Of a DNA stretch of 64,000 nt, positions 10,977 through 26,834 are shown in pieces. The position numbers were made by a program, and so were the translations under genes. Position 1 is the stretch's first letter. The number at the start of each line of letters is the position of its first letter. Source of the stretch: Halobacteriovorax sp. JY17 (lineage in GTDB: Bacteria; Bdellovibrionota; Bacteriovoracia; Bacteriovoracales; Bacteriovoracaceae); the NCBI RefSeq assembly GCF_002753895.1, contig NZ_NJER01000002.1, positions 186,001 to 250,000 of the forward strand, given 5' to 3'. The notes under the pieces were generated by a model that saw nothing but the letters and a program-made list of their open reading frames with translations, ran no database searches and had not been told where the DNA came from.

Positions 10977-11276
10977 TTAATTTTTAAATAGTGAATTAGC
11001 AGCACTTAATAAATCATCTTTATCGTTTCCGCCAGTACCATTTCCTTTTAAAATGAAATAGTCACAGAAGTTTGCTTTATTTTTTTCTACAATACGGTCA
11101 GCACTAGTTTCTCGGCACTCATTATAAGCTGTTTTATCATAGAATCCACACATTCTACAGCAATGCACACTGGCATAGCAATATGGGCACTCTTCACTTC
11201 TGAGAACTCTAGCGTTTTGTTCAAGTTCTAAGCTTTTGTTACATGAATGGCAGTTAATAGTATTTTCTTGAACCAT
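10977..11276 (-). CDS. Small multi-cysteine (zinc-ribbon-like) protein
   Basis: A 99-residue protein with nine cysteines arranged as CHSCNKS, CPYCYASVHCCRMCGFYD, an isolated NECRE and NFCDYF. CxxC pairs suggest two bound zinc ions. The block HCCRMCGFYDKTAYNECRE followed by ANFCDYF recurs, to my knowledge, in uncharacterised proteins of other proteobacteria, but no function is established. Its ATG overlaps the stop of the upstream gene by one base (TAATG), so the two are translationally coupled, and greA follows 9 bases later. Confidence 0.75.
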   Translation of the reverse strand: MVQENTINCHSCNKSLELEQNARVLRSEECPYCYASVHCCRMCGFYDKTAYNECRETSADRIVEKNKANFCDYFILKGNGTGGNDKDDLLSAANSLFKN

Positions 11277-11782
11277 TAGAAGCTCCAGTTTTTCTCAAAA
11301 TATACCGTTTTATAGCTTTTACTCTTCTCATTGCCTAGACTTGTTTGGTTATATTCTATCTGAGGTAAGTTCCTCTTGTTATATTCAAGAATTGCTCTAT
11401 CTAAGTTCTTTTCGTTAGAAGATTCAAACGTTCTCGCCATTAGAAAATTGACAACAATTGAAGTTATTCCACCGATTAGTAATGTTTTCTTATTACTTCC
11501 TGTTGAATTTACAAAAAAGCTTGAAATAATCATTGTCGTACCAATTGTTCCGAGAGCAGCGTTGTGCCATTTCACTTTAGTACCATCTTGATACTTCTCT
11601 AGGAAGTCTGAGGCTACCTTATCCTTTTCAAGATAGTGACGTAGGCCTTCTCCTTTTTGCGTTGAGTTCGAATCAATTAGAACTTCTTGCTGATTAATGG
11701 TGGCAGTTCTTGAGCACGTATCTTGGGCAAAAATATTTGCAAAAGTGAAAATAAATATAAATATGACTTTGATTGTTTTAAT
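11276..11782 (-). CDS. Secreted or membrane protein with probable ATT start
   Basis: A conventional start would be GTG at 11575 (99 residues), but the open frame runs a further 69 codons upstream to ATT at 11782, preceded by TAGGAG six bases away and by an in-frame TAA two codons earlier. That stretch holds no ATG, GTG or TTG. It encodes a clear signal peptide (IKTIKVIFIFIFTFANIFA, then QDTCS), so the full product is 168 residues. The mature part has two hydrophobic segments around GTIGTTMIISSFFV and KTLLIGGITSIVVNFLMA. No family is recognised. It starts the operon with the zinc-ribbon gene, greA and recG. Confidence 0.7.
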   Translation of the reverse strand: MKTIKVIFIFIFTFANIFAQDTCSRTATINQQEVLIDSNSTQKGEGLRHYLEKDKVASDFLEKYQDGTKVKWHNAALGTIGTTMIISSFFVNSTGSNKKTLLIGGITSIVVNFLMARTFESSNEKNLDRAILEYNKRNLPQIEYNQTSLGNEKSKSYKTVYFEKNWSF

Positions 11783-18994: not shown

Positions 18995-19180
18995 ATGAAA
19001 AAAACTTTGCTGGCCTATTTAAAAGACGAAAGTGGGCAAACTTCAACAGAATATATTCTTCTGGTTGCGGTTGTAGCGTTAATTGTTTTCAAGTTCAAAG
19101 ATGTTGCCTCAACTAGATTAAATAAGATCACTGAGGACGTTTTTGGTAAAGCAGAGAGCTTTGTTGATCAAATAGAATAG
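18995..19180 (+). CDS. Flp-type major pilin
   Basis: A 61-residue prepilin of the Flp/Tad class. A short charged leader (MKKTLLAYLKDESG) is followed by the cleavage site G/QTSTEYILLVAVVALIVF, with Glu at +5 and Tyr at +6, as required for Flp prepilins, and a single hydrophobic helix. The mature pilin would be 47 residues. AAGGAG lies before the ATG. It heads the Tad cluster and is separated from the next gene by hairpins, which would allow it to be made in excess of the machinery. It is the best candidate for the structural subunit. Confidence 0.85.
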   Translation: MKKTLLAYLKDESGQTSTEYILLVAVVALIVFKFKDVASTRLNKITEDVFGKAESFVDQIE

Positions 19181-19242
19181 TAGACTAGACTACCTAAAGT
19201 TTTGGTTGTTAGTCTATTGTTCTAGTTGAACAGCACTTCATT

Positions 19243-19271
19243 GCTAGGAATTATATTCCTAAGCGTCTTTT
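19243..19271 (+). terminator. Hairpin after the major pilin gene
   Basis: TAGGAAT (19245-19251) pairs perfectly with ATTCCTA (19255-19261) around TAT, extended by GC/GC past one bulged A, then GTCTTTT. An upstream TAGACTA...TTAGTCTA pairing (about 19190-19216) adds a second structure. Together they may act as a leaky terminator between pilin and the rest of the operon. Confidence 0.5.
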
Positions 19272-19300
19272 CGTATTCAAAATTCTGTTAATTTAGATAC

Positions 19301-19510
19301 ATGGTAAAAGGTAGAGCCGGACAGGCCCTCATTGAGTATCTCATTCTATTTGCATTCATGTCCCTAATTGCTCTTAATATGGTCAAGGGAATGGGTGGAA
19401 TGATGTCTAATTCTATTAGAAGTATTGGTTATCAACTTACTCAGCAGTTAACTATTGGAGTATGCGCTGAAGAGTGTTGGTATTCTGATTATCAAAATAG
19501 GACTAGATAA
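19301..19510 (+). CDS. Pilin-like protein of the Tad cluster
   Basis: A 69-residue protein with a very short leader MVKGRAG, the cleavage motif G/QALIEYLILFAF and one hydrophobic helix. Glu at +5 and Tyr at +6 match the Flp prepilin pattern. The C-terminus contains two cysteines (VCAEECWY) that could form a disulphide outside the membrane, unlike the major pilin. No clear Shine-Dalgarno precedes its ATG. Its stop overlaps the start of the prepilin peptidase gene by one base. Likely a minor pilin. Confidence 0.75.
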   Translation: MVKGRAGQALIEYLILFAFMSLIALNMVKGMGGMMSNSIRSIGYQLTQQLTIGVCAEECWYSDYQNRTR

Positions 19511-20016
19511 TGCCAATCGCAGTCTATCTCTTCTTAGTCGTTCAACTCTTCTTCGTCGCCTCTAATGATATTGCACATAAGAAGATTTCAAACTTCTGGC
19601 CACTTATTAATATAGGATTTTATATTATCAGTGTCTTTCTCTTTCCAAATCAATATATGTTCAGTTTTTCAACGTTTGTTTTTCCTATTGCATTCTTTGT
19701 GGTGGGAGTATTTCTTTTTAGTTTGAAAATTATGGGAGCAGGAGATTCAAAATATCTTCTTTCTTTTTATTTATTAATTCCTGTTTCTTTTCATGAATCA
19801 GCATTTATTTTCTTGGCATACTCAACTGTTGTTGTCGGACTCTCTCTTCTGTTAACTAATATAATGAAAAGATTTGATATAATTAAACTTGCAATAAGAA
19901 CAAGAAATATAAGATTAATAAAAACAATATTTGGACAAAGATTTTCTTATGCTCCAGTAATACTTGTTTCATGGCTGTGGTTTGGATGGACAATAAGACA
20001 AAAAATATTTTATTAA
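19510..20016 (+). CDS. Prepilin peptidase, CpaA/TadV type
   Basis: A 168-residue membrane protein of the A24 aspartic peptidase family, the short CpaA/TadV form without the N-methylase domain. The two catalytic aspartates are visible in ASNDIAHKKISN (about residue 20) and in KIMGAGDSKYLLS (about residue 78, the GxGD motif). About five membrane helices are predicted by eye. It should cleave the prepilin motifs encoded around it. The end overlaps the following pilin-like gene. Confidence 0.88.
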   Translation: MPIAVYLFLVVQLFFVASNDIAHKKISNFWPLINIGFYIISVFLFPNQYMFSFSTFVFPIAFFVVGVFLFSLKIMGAGDSKYLLSFYLLIPVSFHESAFIFLAYSTVVVGLSLLLTNIMKRFDIIKLAIRTRNIRLIKTIFGQRFSYAPVILVSWLWFGWTIRQKIFY

Positions 20017-20300
20017 ATGAAGTGGGGCAGAGTGCTGTGGAGTACATAATGCTTTTGGCCATAATAAGTGTCATTACTTTTTCTATTATCAATTCTGATA
20101 GGTTCAAAAACTTCATGGGTAAAGATTCTTCATTCTTTGCTGGTCTTAGATCACAAGTAGAGTATGCTTATAGACATGGTTATTTAAATAACGAAACAGA
20201 TAGAAGTGATAATAATTATAGTGGTCCTCATGAGACCTATTATAATATTGATGATGGACAGACTCGATTTTTCTCAGGAGGAAAGCAATATCCACGATAA
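19986..20300 (+). CDS. Pilin-like protein with long C-terminal part
   Basis: The product starts most likely at ATG 19986 (104 residues); an ATG at 19971 is also in frame. Leader MDNKTKNILLNEVG is followed by G/QSAVEYIMLLAIISVITF, again with Glu +5 and Tyr +6. The mature protein has a hydrophobic helix and a polar C-terminal region of about 65 residues rich in Asn, Tyr and Gly. It overlaps the prepilin peptidase gene by 31 bases. It is probably a minor pilin or pseudopilin. Confidence 0.72.
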   Translation: MDNKTKNILLNEVGQSAVEYIMLLAIISVITFSIINSDRFKNFMGKDSSFFAGLRSQVEYAYRHGYLNNETDRSDNNYSGPHETYYNIDDGQTRFFSGGKQYPR

Positions 20301-20812
20301 TTAAAAGAGAGGAAGGTCAATCAACGATTGAATTCTTAATGACATTTGTTTTCTCATTTGGATTTATTCTTCTTTTCTATAAAATATCAATTGATGCAAC
20401 AAGTGGATTCTATATTCACTACGCGAATTATATGGCGTCTAGAACATATCTGACGGTTGAAAATAATAGTGCCAATATTGCAGGATCTGATAACTTTGCC
20501 TTTGAAAGAGCAAAGGCCGTATTTGAGAGCTATAAGCCGGAAGTTATGATTGTTGGATTTAATGGTGTGATGAGTGTTAATGATCCTGAGGCAACCCCAA
20601 ATAAGCTCTATGTTGGAACAATTGTTGATTACTCTATTCCATTTTCTTTTAGTGAACTCGTAGGTGGCAGAGATCCTGTCTTTTATAAATCAGAGTCATT
20701 CTTGGGGCGAGAGCCAACTAGAGCGGAGTGCCTCGCAAGAGTATGTAAAACGATGCAAGAAATTGGTGCGGAATGCAATACTCATATAACTTTCTTTGAT
20801 AATGGCTGTTAG
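20288..20812 (+). CDS. TadE-like pseudopilin with probable ATA start
   Basis: The first ATG in frame (20339) lies inside the membrane segment. Upstream, the same frame continues without ATG, GTG or TTG to ATA at 20288, which has AGGAGG six bases before it. The extra 17 residues (ISTIIKREEGQSTIEFL) supply a basic leader and the prepilin motif G/QSTIEF, which the short form lacks. The full product would be 174 residues with one helix and a large C-terminal domain with four cysteines. Position and motif suggest a TadE/TadF-type pseudopilin. Other possibilities are ATT at 20300 as start, or frameshifting from the previous gene. Confidence 0.68.
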   Translation: MSTIIKREEGQSTIEFLMTFVFSFGFILLFYKISIDATSGFYIHYANYMASRTYLTVENNSANIAGSDNFAFERAKAVFESYKPEVMIVGFNGVMSVNDPEATPNKLYVGTIVDYSIPFSFSELVGGRDPVFYKSESFLGREPTRAECLARVCKTMQEIGAECNTHITFFDNGC

Positions 20813-21332
20813 AAACAAAAAGAAGAAAATTCTAAATGAAAAAGGTCAGGCGATATTTGAATTCGTTGTGTTTCTTCCATTTATTATTTTTCTTTATACA
20901 GTTTTAATAAATTTAACGAACTCAATAAATGGATCCATCAATCAACAGAAGGCTACCAGAGGCTACTTCTATAGGCTCTTAAAGCAAGACTCAAGAACTC
21001 CAAATAGAATAGATATAGACTTTCTTATAGGAAGTGGCTTAAACGTTGTTGGACCTGTAAGTGTTGGCTGGAGAAGAAAGTCGATAGGACAAACGCAATC
21101 TTTTGGAACCTGCTATAAATTTATGAACTTCTTTGGAAATGAAACTGATGAAGAGTGTGATGAGCCTAGAGATGGCGAAGTATCATCTAATTTTGTGAAG
21201 CTCTTTACGTTCTACGGTGTTTGCGGAGAAACCTATATGAAATCTGATGATGGATATGTAGAGCAGACTAATTTCCTCAGGAATGGCCGCTTTGCAGACC
21301 AGCTTGGATACGATCAATGTGTTCAAAAATAA
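20802..21332 (+). CDS. TadE-like pseudopilin
   Basis: A 176-residue protein. Its basic leader MAVRNKKKKILNEKG is followed by G/QAIFEFVVFLPFIIFLYTVL, a prepilin motif with Glu +5 and Phe +6 and a proline-containing helix typical of TadE-like proteins. The C-terminal domain has four cysteines. The ATG at 20802 is chosen; it overlaps the preceding gene by 11 bases, suggesting translational coupling. It is the last of five prepilin-motif proteins in a row. Confidence 0.78.
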   Translation: MAVRNKKKKILNEKGQAIFEFVVFLPFIIFLYTVLINLTNSINGSINQQKATRGYFYRLLKQDSRTPNRIDIDFLIGSGLNVVGPVSVGWRRKSIGQTQSFGTCYKFMNFFGNETDEECDEPRDGEVSSNFVKLFTFYGVCGETYMKSDDGYVEQTNFLRNGRFADQLGYDQCVQK

Positions 21333-21419
21333 CTATTTAGACTGACACTTCTTTCCCCATTCTCAACTACTCGTAATTATTTGCTAAAATTAATGGTAGT
21401 CACTTAATAAGGTAAGAGA

Positions 21420-22235
21420 ATGAACACTAGAGCACTTACATTAGCCTTGATTATCGCAGTCTTTGCGATGTTTATGGTTTACACGTATATCGACGATGAA
21501 AAGACAAAGATCATAAAGAAGTATGGTAAAGAGCAATCGGTCGTAATCGCGAAGGTAGATATCAAAGAACTCGAGTTGATCGATGATTCGAAGGTTACAG
21601 TAACTTCGATGCCATCTAACTTTGTTCATGAGAAGGCCTTTAAAACAATTAAAGAAATTCAAAATACTGTGGCAACAGTTCCCATTCTTAAAGGGGAGCA
21701 GATTACAAAACCTAGAGTGAGTTGGCCCGATGAAAGAAGTGGTCTCTCTAGACAAGTTGCTGTTGGTAAGAGAGCGATCTCGCTCGATGTTTCTGAAAGA
21801 GCTTCCGTTGGTAAGTTAATTAAGCCGGGGGATCGCGTTGATATTCTTGCAGGTATTGATTATGCCGGAGGTAGAAAAGACTTACAAAAAATGAAAACAA
21901 TTCTTCAAGATGTACTTATTCTTTCAACAGGTAAGAGTATATCAGGGAACCTACCGATCATTGGAGTGAAAACGCCAAGGGTGATTAAGCAAATGAAACT
22001 TAATACATATAGTGATTACGGAACTGTTACCTTAGAGCTTGATCCATATGAAGTTCAAAAGCTCGTTTTTATTCTGAGTTATAACTCTGGTACACCACCA
22101 TACTTAGCTCTTAGAAATAATACAGATAAAGAAGTTGTTAGAATTAAATCAACGAAGTTATTTGATATTCTTGGAGAGGATGCTTCAGAAGCTAAAATAT
22201 TCTTTTCTGAAAAATATAAAAGCCAAGGCAATTAA
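21420..22235 (+). CDS. Flp pilus assembly protein CpaB/RcpC
   Basis: A 271-residue protein with one N-terminal membrane helix (LTLALIIAVFAMFMVY), then a SAF domain (VVIAKVDIKELELIDDSKV) and the CpaB core GKRAISLDVSERASVGKLIKPGDRVDILAGIDY. The family sits in the periplasm and is thought to help the secretin. A possible promoter (TTGCTA-N17-TTAATA) ends just before the start. The stop codon overlaps the start of the secretin gene (TAATG). Confidence 0.85.
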   Translation: MNTRALTLALIIAVFAMFMVYTYIDDEKTKIIKKYGKEQSVVIAKVDIKELELIDDSKVTVTSMPSNFVHEKAFKTIKEIQNTVATVPILKGEQITKPRVSWPDERSGLSRQVAVGKRAISLDVSERASVGKLIKPGDRVDILAGIDYAGGRKDLQKMKTILQDVLILSTGKSISGNLPIIGVKTPRVIKQMKLNTYSDYGTVTLELDPYEVQKLVFILSYNSGTPPYLALRNNTDKEVVRIKSTKLFDILGEDASEAKIFFSEKYKSQGN

Positions 22236-23716
22236 TGAAATTAGTAAGCTCAATTTTAATATTCATGATTTCTCTAAGTTGTTTTGGACAGCAAGGAAAG
22301 AATGTACCTGAGAAGAAAGTTGAGGTTGTCTTAGGAATTGATCATGTTGAAAAATTGGACTTTGCACCCTCGACAAAAGTTCAAGTAGGTAATGATACTA
22401 TTTTAAATCATGTGATAATTCCTCAAAAGAGAGAAATTACTTTTAAAGGATTAAAGCCAGGACAGACTTCTGTCATGATAAGAAATACTGTTGGAGATAT
22501 AAAAGCTAAATTTCTTGTGAATATAACTGCAACTGATCAGTCAAAGGTCGTACAGGAGCTTAAAGAGTTTCTCGGTGATGTGGAAGGTTTAGAAATAGGA
22601 ATTAAGGGAAACAAAGTCTATGTTGGAGGAGAAATTGTTGTTCCTTCAGATATTGGAAAGGTGATTGTTGTTCTTGGTGGATATCCCGACGTTGTTCAGC
22701 TTGTAGAACTCTCTCCGCAGACTCAGAGAGTTATCGCAAGAAATATGCAAAAAGAAATTCAAAAAAGTAATATGCCAGATGTTACGGTAAGAGTGGCCAA
22801 TGGACTCTTTATGTTAGAGGGCGTTGTAAGTGCTGATGTTGATAAGACAAGGGCCGAGCAAATTGCAGCCGTCTATGTTCCGGACATGATTCAAAACCTT
22901 GCAAGAAGAACTGAATCTGTTAAGGCAGCAGAGAAAGATATTATTCAAAACTTCATTAGTGTGAATTCAAAGAAAAAACCAGCACCAATTCCAAAGCTTA
23001 TAAAAATATCCGCTCAATTTGTTGAGCTAACAAAAGATTATAATAAAATTTTTGGATTTAAGTGGGAACCTGTTCTGGCCGGAGGCGGGGGAACAATTAA
23101 TATTGGGAAGGGGAATGATGGTGGAGTCACAAGTTCATCTCAGGGAACCCTTGCTGGAACAATTTCAAACTTATTCCCAAGACTTGCTTCGGCTAAGAGT
23201 GCAGGATACGCGCGTGTTATTCAGTCTGGGGTTATAATAACAAAAGATAAAATTGCAAGTAAGATTGTGAAAAGAAGTGAGAAGCCTTTTGCAATTGGTA
23301 CGGGAGAATTTGTTCGTACAGAGAAGGCTTCTGCTGGATTTGACTTAGCAATAACACCGACAATACTTCCGCAAGAAAAAATTGATTTAAGTATGGGGAT
23401 TACTGTTAGCGCAAATGTTGGAGACCCTCCAGAGACTACTTCAAATACTATACAAACAGCTTTGGTTGTTAAGAGTAAAGAAAGTGCTGTTGTTGGTGGA
23501 GTCGTGGTCAATAAGTCTTCTACTGACTTTGATAGAAATCCTCCTGGAGGAGTAGATGATGTTGAAGACGGAAATAAATTATTCTCTTTTGTTAAGTCAA
23601 AAGCTTATTTAACCAATAAATCTCAATTCGTCGTTTTTGTGACTCCTGAAATTATTGAGTCAGCTTCAAGCGGAACGGAAGAAATTAAACGTAAGTTTAG
23701 AAGTAGAAGAAGATAA
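22235..23716 (+). CDS. Flp pilus secretin CpaC/RcpA
   Basis: A 493-residue outer-membrane secretin of the type II/Tad class. It has a signal peptide (MKLVSSILIFMISLSCFG), an N-terminal pilus-secretin domain (to about residue 110), a BON-like domain (VTVRVANGLFMLEGVV), and the secretin core with IQSGVIITKDKIASK, LAITPTILPQEKIDLSM and SQFVVFVTPEII. Cys16 lies before Phe-Gly, so a lipobox is not convincing. It would form the channel for the pilus. It overlaps both neighbours by one base. Confidence 0.88.
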   Translation: MKLVSSILIFMISLSCFGQQGKNVPEKKVEVVLGIDHVEKLDFAPSTKVQVGNDTILNHVIIPQKREITFKGLKPGQTSVMIRNTVGDIKAKFLVNITATDQSKVVQELKEFLGDVEGLEIGIKGNKVYVGGEIVVPSDIGKVIVVLGGYPDVVQLVELSPQTQRVIARNMQKEIQKSNMPDVTVRVANGLFMLEGVVSADVDKTRAEQIAAVYVPDMIQNLARRTESVKAAEKDIIQNFISVNSKKKPAPIPKLIKISAQFVELTKDYNKIFGFKWEPVLAGGGGTINIGKGNDGGVTSSSQGTLAGTISNLFPRLASAKSAGYARVIQSGVIITKDKIASKIVKRSEKPFAIGTGEFVRTEKASAGFDLAITPTILPQEKIDLSMGITVSANVGDPPETTSNTIQTALVVKSKESAVVGGVVVNKSSTDFDRNPPGGVDDVEDGNKLFSFVKSKAYLTNKSQFVVFVTPEIIESASSGTEEIKRKFRSRRR

Positions 23717-25944
23717 TGGCCGGACATATAATTACAATTATTGGTGGAAAAGGTGGACAGGGTAAGTCTCAGGTCGCAGCAAATTTAGCTTTTGCTTATG
23801 CTGCAGAATCGAGAGCGAAGGTTCTTCTTCTAGACTTTGATAAGAGAGCTAGTGGAGATCAGAACTTCATTACTGGGATGAAGTCAAAGAAGACAGTTAA
23901 AGATCTCTCGGAGTTTAGTGGTGCAATAGATCCAAGATCTATTATGCAATTTATTACACCACACCCTGCGGGAGTTAGTTATATTGGAATGCCAAGTGAT
24001 CCAACTGCAAGTGATGGTATCAATGCAGATGGGCTTGGGAAAAGTCTTAAGGCCATAACTAATATTTTTCCTCTTACAATTATAGATGGTGGAAGTGAGA
24101 TGAATGATCTCGCCGCAAAGGCGTTAGAGTTTTCAACAATGATTTTTCTTGTTGTGACTCCTGATATTCTTGCTCTCAATCAAACCAAGAGGCTGTACTC
24201 AGACCTTGTTACGATGATGTTTCCAAAAGATATGATGCAAGTGATTTTAAATCAACATCAGAAAGGTCACCCTGTTACTCCTGAGGTTGTTGGAAAGGCG
24301 ATGGGAAAACTACCCTTCGCAAATATTCCAAAAGATGATCAAACCTGTGTTATGGCCTTAAATCAAAAGAAGCCCGTCATGGTTATTGCAAAGAAGAGTA
24401 ACTTTGCTAAAGGGGTTGTTGAGTGTGCAAGAAAGATTATTCAAAAAAATATTCTTAAATCTCTAGCAAAGCTAAATAAACCTACAAACGTTGGGGCGAG
24501 TACTGATGCAAACGCTCCAATGGATGGAAAAGCAAAGAGTGCTTGGACTGAACTTAAATCTAGAATACATAAAGCTCTTGTGGATGAAATGGATTTAAAG
24601 AATTCAGATGATAATGACCCTAAGGCCTCTGTTATTATGAGAGAACAGACAAAGAAAATGGTCGTAGAACTTCTTGGTAAAGAAGACACAAAGAGTATCT
24701 TTCAGTCTAGAGAAGATATGAATAGAATCGTAAAAGAAATCTTAGATGAGGCTCTTGGGCTTGGTCCTCTCGAAGATTTACTCGCCGACAAAGATTGTTC
24801 TGAAATCATGGTAGTTGGGCCTGATAAAATATTCTATGAAAAAGATGGAAAAGTTAAAAAGTCTGAAATTACATTTACTAATGATAGACAAGTTTTAAAC
24901 GTTATCGAAAGAATTGTGGCTCCCATTGGTAGACGAATTGATGAGAAGACTCCGTATGTGGATGCTCGTCTAAAAGATGGATCAAGAGTTCACGCTATTA
25001 TTCCACCATCAGCACTTGATGGTTGTTGTATTACAATTAGAAAATTTCCTGAGGAAGTTCTTACTTATAAAAACTATGTTCAGTGGGGATCTCTCACTCA
25101 AAATATGGCCGATTTTTTAAGGATCGCTGTTGAGGGGCATAGAAATATTGTTGTAAGTGGTGGTACGGGTTCGGGTAAAACAACACTAATTAATATTCTT
25201 GGAGGGTTTATTCCTGCCAATGAACGTATCATTACATGTGAAGACTCGGCTGAACTTAATTTTCCTCAAGACCACGTGGTAAGACTAGAAACAAGGCCTC
25301 CATCTCTTGAAGGTGAGGGCGAAATTGATATTAGATGTCTTGTGAAGCAAACACTTAGAATGCGTCCTGAAAGAATTGTTGTGGGAGAGTGTCGTGGTGG
25401 AGAAACTTTAGACATGCTTCAAGCAATGGGGACCGGGCACGACGGTTCCATGACGACAGTTCACTCTAATAACCCAAGAGAGTGTATCGGACGATTAGAA
25501 ACACTTGTTCAATATGCAGGAGCAGGTCTAAGTCCAAAAGCAATTAGAGAAATGATTGCAAACTCTGTTCATATGATTATTCAGCAAAAGAGATTAGATG
25601 ACGGTTCCAGAAAAATTACACACATCTCCGAAATCGGTGGAATCCAGGGAGAAGTAATTACTCTTCAAGATATTTTTCTCTTTCAACAAAGAGATATAGA
25701 CAAGAATGGGAAAATTATTGGTGAATTTCAGGCGACGGGTTTTATTCCAAAGTTTATCGAAGTCTTGGAAAGGAAGGGCTATAACGTTCCGAGAGGATTG
25801 TTTAGCAATAGTACAAATGAAAATAAAGGAGGAGGATCGACGCCTCCTGCAAGCTCTGGTGGCGGTTCCACAGGAGGAGATGGGAAACCTAATCCAAAGC
25901 AAAGACCTCCAGGCGCTCGTCCAGTAAAGAAGAGGCCTAGCTAA
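23716..25944 (+). CDS. Fusion of TadZ/CpaE-like ATPase and TadA/CpaF secretion ATPase
   Basis: A 742-residue protein joining two Tad ATPases that are normally separate. Residues 1 to about 240 are a MinD/ParA-type domain with the deviant Walker A GGKGGQGKSQVAANLA, as in TadZ/CpaE, without the receiver-like N-terminus of TadZ. Residues about 290-700 are CpaF: DLLADKDCSEIMVVG, the P-loop VSGGTGSGKTTLINIL, RIVVGECRGGETLDMLQAMGTGHDGSMTTVHSN. The tail is rich in Gly, Pro and Lys. The fusion would tether the localisation factor to the assembly motor. No stop or frameshift lies between the halves. Confidence 0.9.
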   Translation: MAGHIITIIGGKGGQGKSQVAANLAFAYAAESRAKVLLLDFDKRASGDQNFITGMKSKKTVKDLSEFSGAIDPRSIMQFITPHPAGVSYIGMPSDPTASDGINADGLGKSLKAITNIFPLTIIDGGSEMNDLAAKALEFSTMIFLVVTPDILALNQTKRLYSDLVTMMFPKDMMQVILNQHQKGHPVTPEVVGKAMGKLPFANIPKDDQTCVMALNQKKPVMVIAKKSNFAKGVVECARKIIQKNILKSLAKLNKPTNVGASTDANAPMDGKAKSAWTELKSRIHKALVDEMDLKNSDDNDPKASVIMREQTKKMVVELLGKEDTKSIFQSREDMNRIVKEILDEALGLGPLEDLLADKDCSEIMVVGPDKIFYEKDGKVKKSEITFTNDRQVLNVIERIVAPIGRRIDEKTPYVDARLKDGSRVHAIIPPSALDGCCITIRKFPEEVLTYKNYVQWGSLTQNMADFLRIAVEGHRNIVVSGGTGSGKTTLINILGGFIPANERIITCEDSAELNFPQDHVVRLETRPPSLEGEGEIDIRCLVKQTLRMRPERIVVGECRGGETLDMLQAMGTGHDGSMTTVHSNNPRECIGRLETLVQYAGAGLSPKAIREMIANSVHMIIQQKRLDDGSRKITHISEIGGIQGEVITLQDIFLFQQRDIDKNGKIIGEFQATGFIPKFIEVLERKGYNVPRGLFSNSTNENKGGGSTPPASSGGGSTGGDGKPNPKQRPPGARPVKKRPS

Positions 25945-26834
25945 TGAGTTTCTTTCTTGCTCTCATTGGTAAATCTGGGCTCATAGGGCTTATTGGCCTA
26001 GCCCTCTTTCTTCTTTGTTATAAGTATTCTCAAGGTATTTTTGATTGGATTGAAAATCAAACTTTTGGAACGAGAAGCTACATCATGGAGAAGTTAGAGC
26101 TTCTCTTTATTGAAATTCCTGAACAAAGAATTACTTATGCACTTCTTGGATGCTCTGTAGGGCTAGGGTGCTTTATGTTCTTATTTCTAGGGCTATTTAG
26201 TCAGTGGGTTCTAGGCTTTATACTAGGGTTAGTATTTGGTTTTATAGGATTTAAAATACCAAAGCCCATTATAAATTATCTTGTTGAGAGACGAATTAAT
26301 GAATATTCAGGTCAAATGGTAGATGCTCTTACTCTCTTGTCTAATGGAATTAGGGCAGGACTCTCAGTTCCTCAGGCCATTGGAATGGTTGTAGACGAAA
26401 TGCCAGCTCCAGTTTCTCAAGAGTTTAATATGATTCTTCAGCAAAATAGAATTGGTGTTCCCCTCGAAGAGTGCTTTGATAACTTAGCAAAGAGAGTTCC
26501 TACAGAAGACAATGACATGTTTGTCTCCTCTATAAATATCCTAAGAGAGACAGGTGGTAACCTTGCAGAGGTCTTCGACACAATTGTTGAAGTGATTAGA
26601 GAAAGAGTTAGGCTTAAGCAGAAGATTGATACCTACACTGCTCAGGGGATGTTTCAGGGAATGACAATTTTTCTCATGCCTTATGGAATTGGACTTATCT
26701 ACTTTGTATCAGATCCTGATTCAGTGAAGCCAATGTTTACCCATCCCCTTGGAATTTTACTTACTTTGGTGGCGCTCGCCTTTGATTTTGCCGGAGGCTT
26801 TGTCATTATGAAGATAGTAAAAATAAAGGTTTAG
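25944..26834 (+). CDS. Tad platform protein, TadB-type
   Basis: A 296-residue inner-membrane protein with a T2SSF domain. The helix-rich cytoplasmic part reads MVDALTLLSNGIRAGLSVPQAIGMV and continues to LRETGGNLAEVFDTIVEVIRERVRLKQKI, the signature of GspF/TadB-type platforms. Membrane helices lie near residues 8-25, 62-105 and 235-290. Tad systems usually have a TadB-TadC pair; here only one is present and the operon seems to end, so it may act as a homodimer or TadC may be elsewhere. Confidence 0.85.
   Translation: MSFFLALIGKSGLIGLIGLALFLLCYKYSQGIFDWIENQTFGTRSYIMEKLELLFIEIPEQRITYALLGCSVGLGCFMFLFLGLFSQWVLGFILGLVFGFIGFKIPKPIINYLVERRINEYSGQMVDALTLLSNGIRAGLSVPQAIGMVVDEMPAPVSQEFNMILQQNRIGVPLEECFDNLAKRVPTEDNDMFVSSINILRETGGNLAEVFDTIVEVIRERVRLKQKIDTYTAQGMFQGMTIFLMPYGIGLIYFVSDPDSVKPMFTHPLGILLTLVALAFDFAGGFVIMKIVKIKV

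Follow-up and report, generated by a model that had tools for sequence, protein, structure and literature searches.

Where does translation of a pilin gene begin when no ordinary start codon precedes the segment by which the protein is recognized as a pilin? This question is raised by an open frame on the forward strand of the window, a stretch of 64,000 nucleotides that was analysed here and that comes from the 3.47 Mb genome of a Halobacteriovorax-type predator, whose near relatives in the named genome collection are UBA3083 and a Halobacteriovorax marinus isolate. The frame (20255-20812) follows the stop codon TGA at 20252-20254 and closes with TAG at 20810-20812. It encodes the prepilin peptidase motif G|QSTIEF at 20315-20335, with cleavage expected after the glycine at 20315-20317, and its first ATG is located downstream of the motif, at 20339-20341. 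No ATG, GTG or TTG occurs in this frame between the TGA and GQSTIEF. An earlier note, made from the letters of this DNA, had described the locus as a pseudopilin gene starting with ATA, and the observations on which that reading was built were confirmed, including the Shine-Dalgarno (SD) sequence AGGAGG at 20276-20281, which is separated by the six nucleotides AAAGCA from the ATA at 20288-20290. The coding sequence proposed from this ATA (20288-20812) comprises 174 codons and the TAG. The SD lies within the 3' end of an upstream pilin gene, whose stop codon TAA (20298-20300) stands just 3' of the proposed start, giving an overlap of 13 nt between the two genes (20288-20300). In the predicted RNA structure, the ATA is unpaired.

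A TadE/F-like protein in a Tad locus

The gene is part of a Tad pilus locus spanning 18995-26834, all on the forward strand, which encodes Flp-type pilins, a TadV-like peptidase, CpaB, a secretin and a TadZ-TadA fusion. The locus opens with a Flp-type pilin (18995-19180; motif GQTSTEY; Flp_Fap E 3e-4, under the curated cut-off), a Flp-like pilin (19301-19510; GQALIEY) and a TadV-like prepilin peptidase (19510-20016; Peptidase_A24 E 1e-4, under the curated cut-off). These are followed by the Flp-like pilin gene directly upstream of the ATA (19986-20300; GQSAVEY), for which ATG 19971 is an alternative start and whose product has a conserved C-terminus, RFF..YP. On the other side, a pseudopilin gene with an ATG start and the motif GQAIFEF (20802-21332) overlaps the 3' end of the ATA gene, so the claim that four neighbours share the prepilin motif proved correct. 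The remaining genes (21420-26834) encode CpaB/RcpC, the secretin, the TadZ-TadA fusion and a TadB/C-like protein, with matches to RcpC, Secretin, T2SSE and ParA/CbiA; the TadB/C-like label of the last gene was assigned from its position alone. In the fusion, ParA/MinD-like (TadZ) and TadA ATPase domains are joined in a single 742-aa open reading frame (23716-25944, forward strand). The pseudopilin is thus accompanied by a peptidase, a secretin and an ATPase, of which the peptidase, like the Flp pilin, was matched under the curated cut-off. Three Tad-associated flp pilins and TadV have been described in H. marinus (PMC5430801).

The protein read from the ATA contains the pattern G|xxxxE/F followed by a hydrophobic helix (GQSTIEFLMTFVFSFGFILLF), and the G, Q, E and F of the motif are invariant across 41 orthologs. 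In the structure model, an N-terminal helix of 55 residues (2-56) is followed by a small strand domain, an arrangement that is pilin-like by eye. Searches of the PDB with the pseudopilin, by sequence and by fold, gave no match, and the window protein did not match Pfam TadE (PF07811). Weak TadE matches were obtained for 5 of the 41 orthologs (best E 0.0054); because these stay under the Pfam curated cut-off, the protein is labelled here only as TadE/F-like, an assignment suggested by the motif and the gene position. It resembles TadE, TadF and TadG, as well as the Kil 'Tip' minor pilins of Myxococcus (PMC12075869), in the prepilin motif, in its place in the Tad locus of a predator and, according to the model, in the long N-terminal helix followed by strands; it differs from them in having neither a Pfam TadE match over the cut-off nor a PDB match. 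Minor pilins form the pilus tip; those of Myxococcus need a prepilin peptidase for their processing, and killing depends on them (PMC12075869).

Conservation and selection around the ATA codon

Orthologs were sought in 129 genomes of the family and the gene was found in 120. The genus forms a clade in the protein tree (100/100), and the proteins of the four congeners are 72-86% identical to that of the window. None of the five genus genomes has a canonical start in the interval from the in-frame stop to the motif, and since this holds for five species at such distances, the missing start is not explained by a sequencing error or by a recent mutation. The comparison of orthologous Tad loci that the earlier note had proposed therefore yielded a normal start codon in none of the five, and often an ATG in other genera of the family. 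The only near-cognate codon common to all five species at the same place is the ATA at codon -9, counted from the motif glycine. It is preceded by AGGAG in every case, extended to AGGAGG in three species and to AGGAGC in two (L004 and L005), so that an AUH codon behind a strong SD is kept throughout the genus, with a weaker SD in L004 and L005. The leaders implied by this start are MSTIIKREEG, MSVTLNKEEG, MSTLIRKEEG, MSLITKKEDG and MSTIIKRDEG.

Calculated from few codons in five related species, pN/pS is 0.02 for GQSTIEFL (pS 0.81, pN 0.02) and 0.16 in the pseudopilin frame from just 3' of the upstream stop towards the first ATG, compared with about 1.7 in the two other frames. On the 5' side of the ATA, the pseudopilin frame gives 1.3-1.5; over nt -60 to -28 relative to the motif, its ratio is 1.3 and that of the upstream gene's frame 0.5. 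Such substitution patterns indicate that the stretch before the first ATG, including GQSTIEFL, is translated. Protein-level selection on the pseudopilin frame is absent 5' of the ATA and clear soon 3' of it, which favours an internal start; from the ATA to the upstream stop, the codons overlap the upstream gene and selection on the two frames is not separable.

The SD itself is preserved at synonymous sites within the pilin gene upstream. That gene has 33 columns with a largely free third base, and only 5 of them show the same third base in every species. The 2 codons forming AGGAG are among these 5, even though the residues encoded there differ between species (S/T-G-G/A); if the kinship of the species is ignored, two particular columns would both belong to the set of five with a probability of 10/528, about 0.02. 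The initial A of the ATA is likewise kept while its codon in the upstream gene varies (CAA, CCA, GGA). The hexamer ATATCC is mostly imposed by the conserved Tyr-Pro of the upstream protein (A|TAT|CC), and for this reason conservation of the ATA alone is weak evidence. The duplexes predicted between SD and anti-SD have energies of -10.3, -10.8, -10.8, -6.6 and -6.6 kcal/mol in the five species, as against a median of -3.5 kcal/mol in ATG-started orthologs, and a value of -10 is reached by 0.8% of 4,911 ATA triplets in the loci compared. A weak codon combined with a stronger than usual SD is also the pattern of non-canonical starts in Staphylococcus aureus (PMC13009471), and the pseudopilin start conforms to it.

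Alternative starts and the wider genomic context

A programmed -1 frameshift at the Phe-Phe T-run of the upstream gene, which would produce a pilin-pseudopilin fusion and which the earlier note had named, at 20300, as the event that would overturn the ATA reading, is very unlikely. The pseudopilin frame is indeed -1 relative to the upstream gene, and in each of the five species no stop interrupts it between the T-run and the motif, with T TTT TTT in L003 and T TTT TTC in L005, but a full X XXY YYZ heptamer is present in just these 2 of the 5, and no heptamer is common to them all. The two phenylalanines are kept across the family whatever the frame relation of the genes, and they are thus a protein motif. 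Frameshifting is also disfavoured by the lack of protein-level selection 5' of the ATA, a stretch that the fusion would include. Moreover, prepilin peptidase acts at the cytoplasmic side of the membrane, as follows from pilin topology, and a fusion would place the K/R-rich leader and the cleavage site in the periplasm, beyond its reach. Within the genus, the ATA reading consequently stands. A similarly slim chance is given to termination-reinitiation at one of the near-cognate codons at the upstream stop, ATA 20297 or ATT 20300. The former overlaps the TAA as ATAA, much like an ATGA overlap, and at the equivalent codon L078, from another genus, has GTG; against this, L002 has ACT and L003 has CTA at this codon, which in the window stands at a distance of 15 nt from the SD, and the codon overlapping the stop differs over the five species (ATA, GTA, CTA, TTA, ATA).

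It is highly improbable that translation begins at ATG 20339 and that the motif upstream is untranslated. This ATG is the first canonical start of the frame, except for a TTG directly before it in L004, and it is likely the wrong start that automatic annotation would choose. It has no SD at a usable distance, and a protein started there would be without the prepilin processing site; the preceding GQSTIEFL is kept despite saturated synonymous change, and the four motif residues are invariant in orthologs of which many have an ATG before the motif. Loss of a normal start codon through an error of sequencing or assembly, for which general caution alone speaks, has a negligible probability, as the same arrangement is found in five separate species genomes, one of them complete-looking with 2 contigs. 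The ATA start of the pseudopilin gene is accordingly well supported by the absence of canonical starts in 5/5 genomes, the maintained SD and ATA, and the signs of translation in the extension.

The earlier note had also pointed to a second gene in the window with an AUH start, the 'ATT case', evidently the minus-strand gene at 11782-11276, and had suggested relaxed start selection as one explanation. The second gene was corroborated. It encodes a secreted-protein-like product of 168 aa (11276-11782, reverse strand) with ATT behind TAGGAG, an arrangement seen in three species of the genus; the fourth has TTG and the start in the fifth is unclear. No convincing Pfam or NCBIfam family was found for this product. 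Relaxed start selection, on the other hand, was not borne out. A mechanical scan covered 400 kb on both strands for open reading frames of at least 100 codons led by an AUH or CTG codon behind AGGAG or GGAGG and lacking any canonical start either further 5' in the same frame or at the codon that follows, and only two were retrieved, the pseudopilin gene (ATA) and the ATT gene at 11782. In the accompanying survey, 400 kb of the window genome were compared with the matching 400 kb of one congener, leaving about 317 conserved gene pairs after a filter had removed antisense frames of real genes, and only these two cases emerged. Outside the window, infC keeps its usual AUH start, ATT behind GGAGGTGA, in 5/5 genus genomes, a useful control which implies that AUH initiation operates in these cells. 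At L084 1432-2046 (reverse strand), the infC ATT stands behind TGGAGGTGATTT, an extended SD that is strongly conserved in 5/5 genomes. Of 32 tRNA matches, 30 loci were examined; three had the anticodon CAT, and an odd initiator-like anticodon was seen in none.

Across the family, start codons of the pseudopilin gene turn over fast; most genera use ATG, often in ATGA or TAATG overlaps, and no ATA start was found at this gene in any other genus among the family orthologs. Where a nearby ATG is lacking, the gene is almost always in frame +1 relative to the upstream stop, and some of these orthologs (L051, L037) carry a good TTG or GTG. Genus g16 has the same ATA triplet, and a few codons 3' of it stand an ATG in L013 and, overlapping the stop of the upstream gene, a GTG in L078. 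Many of the genomes without a nearby ATG are fragmented, and for a few of these orthologs inspection of start codons and SDs revealed no convincing start. Among orthologs with no nearby convincing canonical start, CTG stands behind a good SD in L133 and L049 (both genus g9) and in L009, as does ATC in L130; these are possible independent non-AUG starts and are given here as a lead. In L008 and L012 (genus g10), an ATT located 4-5 codons ahead of the prepilin motif overlaps the stop of the upstream gene, forming ATTAG, and L016 and L074 (genus g12) have ATG at codon -5 or nearby, where g10 has ATT. In genus g17, the codon eight positions ahead of the motif is ATG in L118 and AAG in L019; the latter has no close start, so that its start may have moved upstream. 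Frameshifting in the +1 direction at the upstream stop was considered for the other frame +1 genera and dropped, as they share no slippery codon, and many of them have an upstream ATG, GTG or TTG, or CTG, ATC or ATT behind an SD.

A weak start codon for a minor pilin

The best explanation, to which we assign a probability of roughly 0.83, is AUA initiation by means of a strong SD, coupled to the upstream gene and giving a low output of a TadE/F-like minor pilin. The initiator fMet-tRNA would start translation at AUA 20288, a weak codon selected by the AGGAGG that precedes it by 6 nt within the terminal part of the upstream gene, and ribosomes finishing that gene at the overlapping stop (20298-20300) could feed the AUA through translational coupling. 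The predicted preprotein, MSTIIKREEG|QSTIEF..., would be cleaved by the TadV-like peptidase of the same locus to release the minor pilin. The AUA would hold output to a fraction of the AUG level, which may suit a putative pilus-tip subunit needed in few copies. The earlier suggestion of a low-expression device thus fits the behaviour of AUA and AUU starts as well as the probable needs for a minor pilin. In S. aureus reporters, AUA and AUU starts with strong SDs gave about 10-30% of the AUG level (PMC13009471).

In E. coli, infC starts with AUU. This gene and pcnB share with the pseudopilin gene a rare AUH start, AUU in their case and AUA here, and infC is autoregulated by IF3, whereas no such loop is known for the pseudopilin gene. 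In both E. coli genes the rare AUH start serves to limit expression; pcnB and the autoregulation of infC are cited in PMC13009471. The S. aureus genes ccpN, citZ and infC (AUA) and cvfC1 (AUU) likewise begin with an AUH codon that follows a strong or extended SD; the starts of ccpN and cvfC1 are conserved across species, and the non-canonical starts lower reporter output (PMC13009471). That set comprises regulators, metabolic genes and translation factors with mapped starts, whereas the present case is a pilus structural gene with a predicted start, and only the pseudopilin gene has its SD within an upstream gene. The ATA-started pseudopilin is therefore a well-supported new case of a phenomenon known from infC, pcnB and ccpN, and is unusual in being genus-wide, in its AUA codon and in having a ribosome-binding site inside the coding sequence of another gene.

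Genus-wide AUA starts have rarely been documented in bacteria, and gene finders taking only ATG, GTG and TTG would start this protein past its processing site and hide it from pilin searches. The locus also offers a clean test case for comparative work on weak starts that are rescued by an SD lying within a different gene. A further, rather doubtful idea is that the whole ribosome-binding site, SD and AUA, is kept in the synonymous positions of the upstream gene across the genus as a selected dose control of a tip subunit, with other genera independently using CTG or ATT. If this were true, such control would set the number of tip subunits in the Tad pilus of the predator. The ATA start also provides a way to approach the dosage of minor pilins in a kind of pilus that serves related predators in predation.
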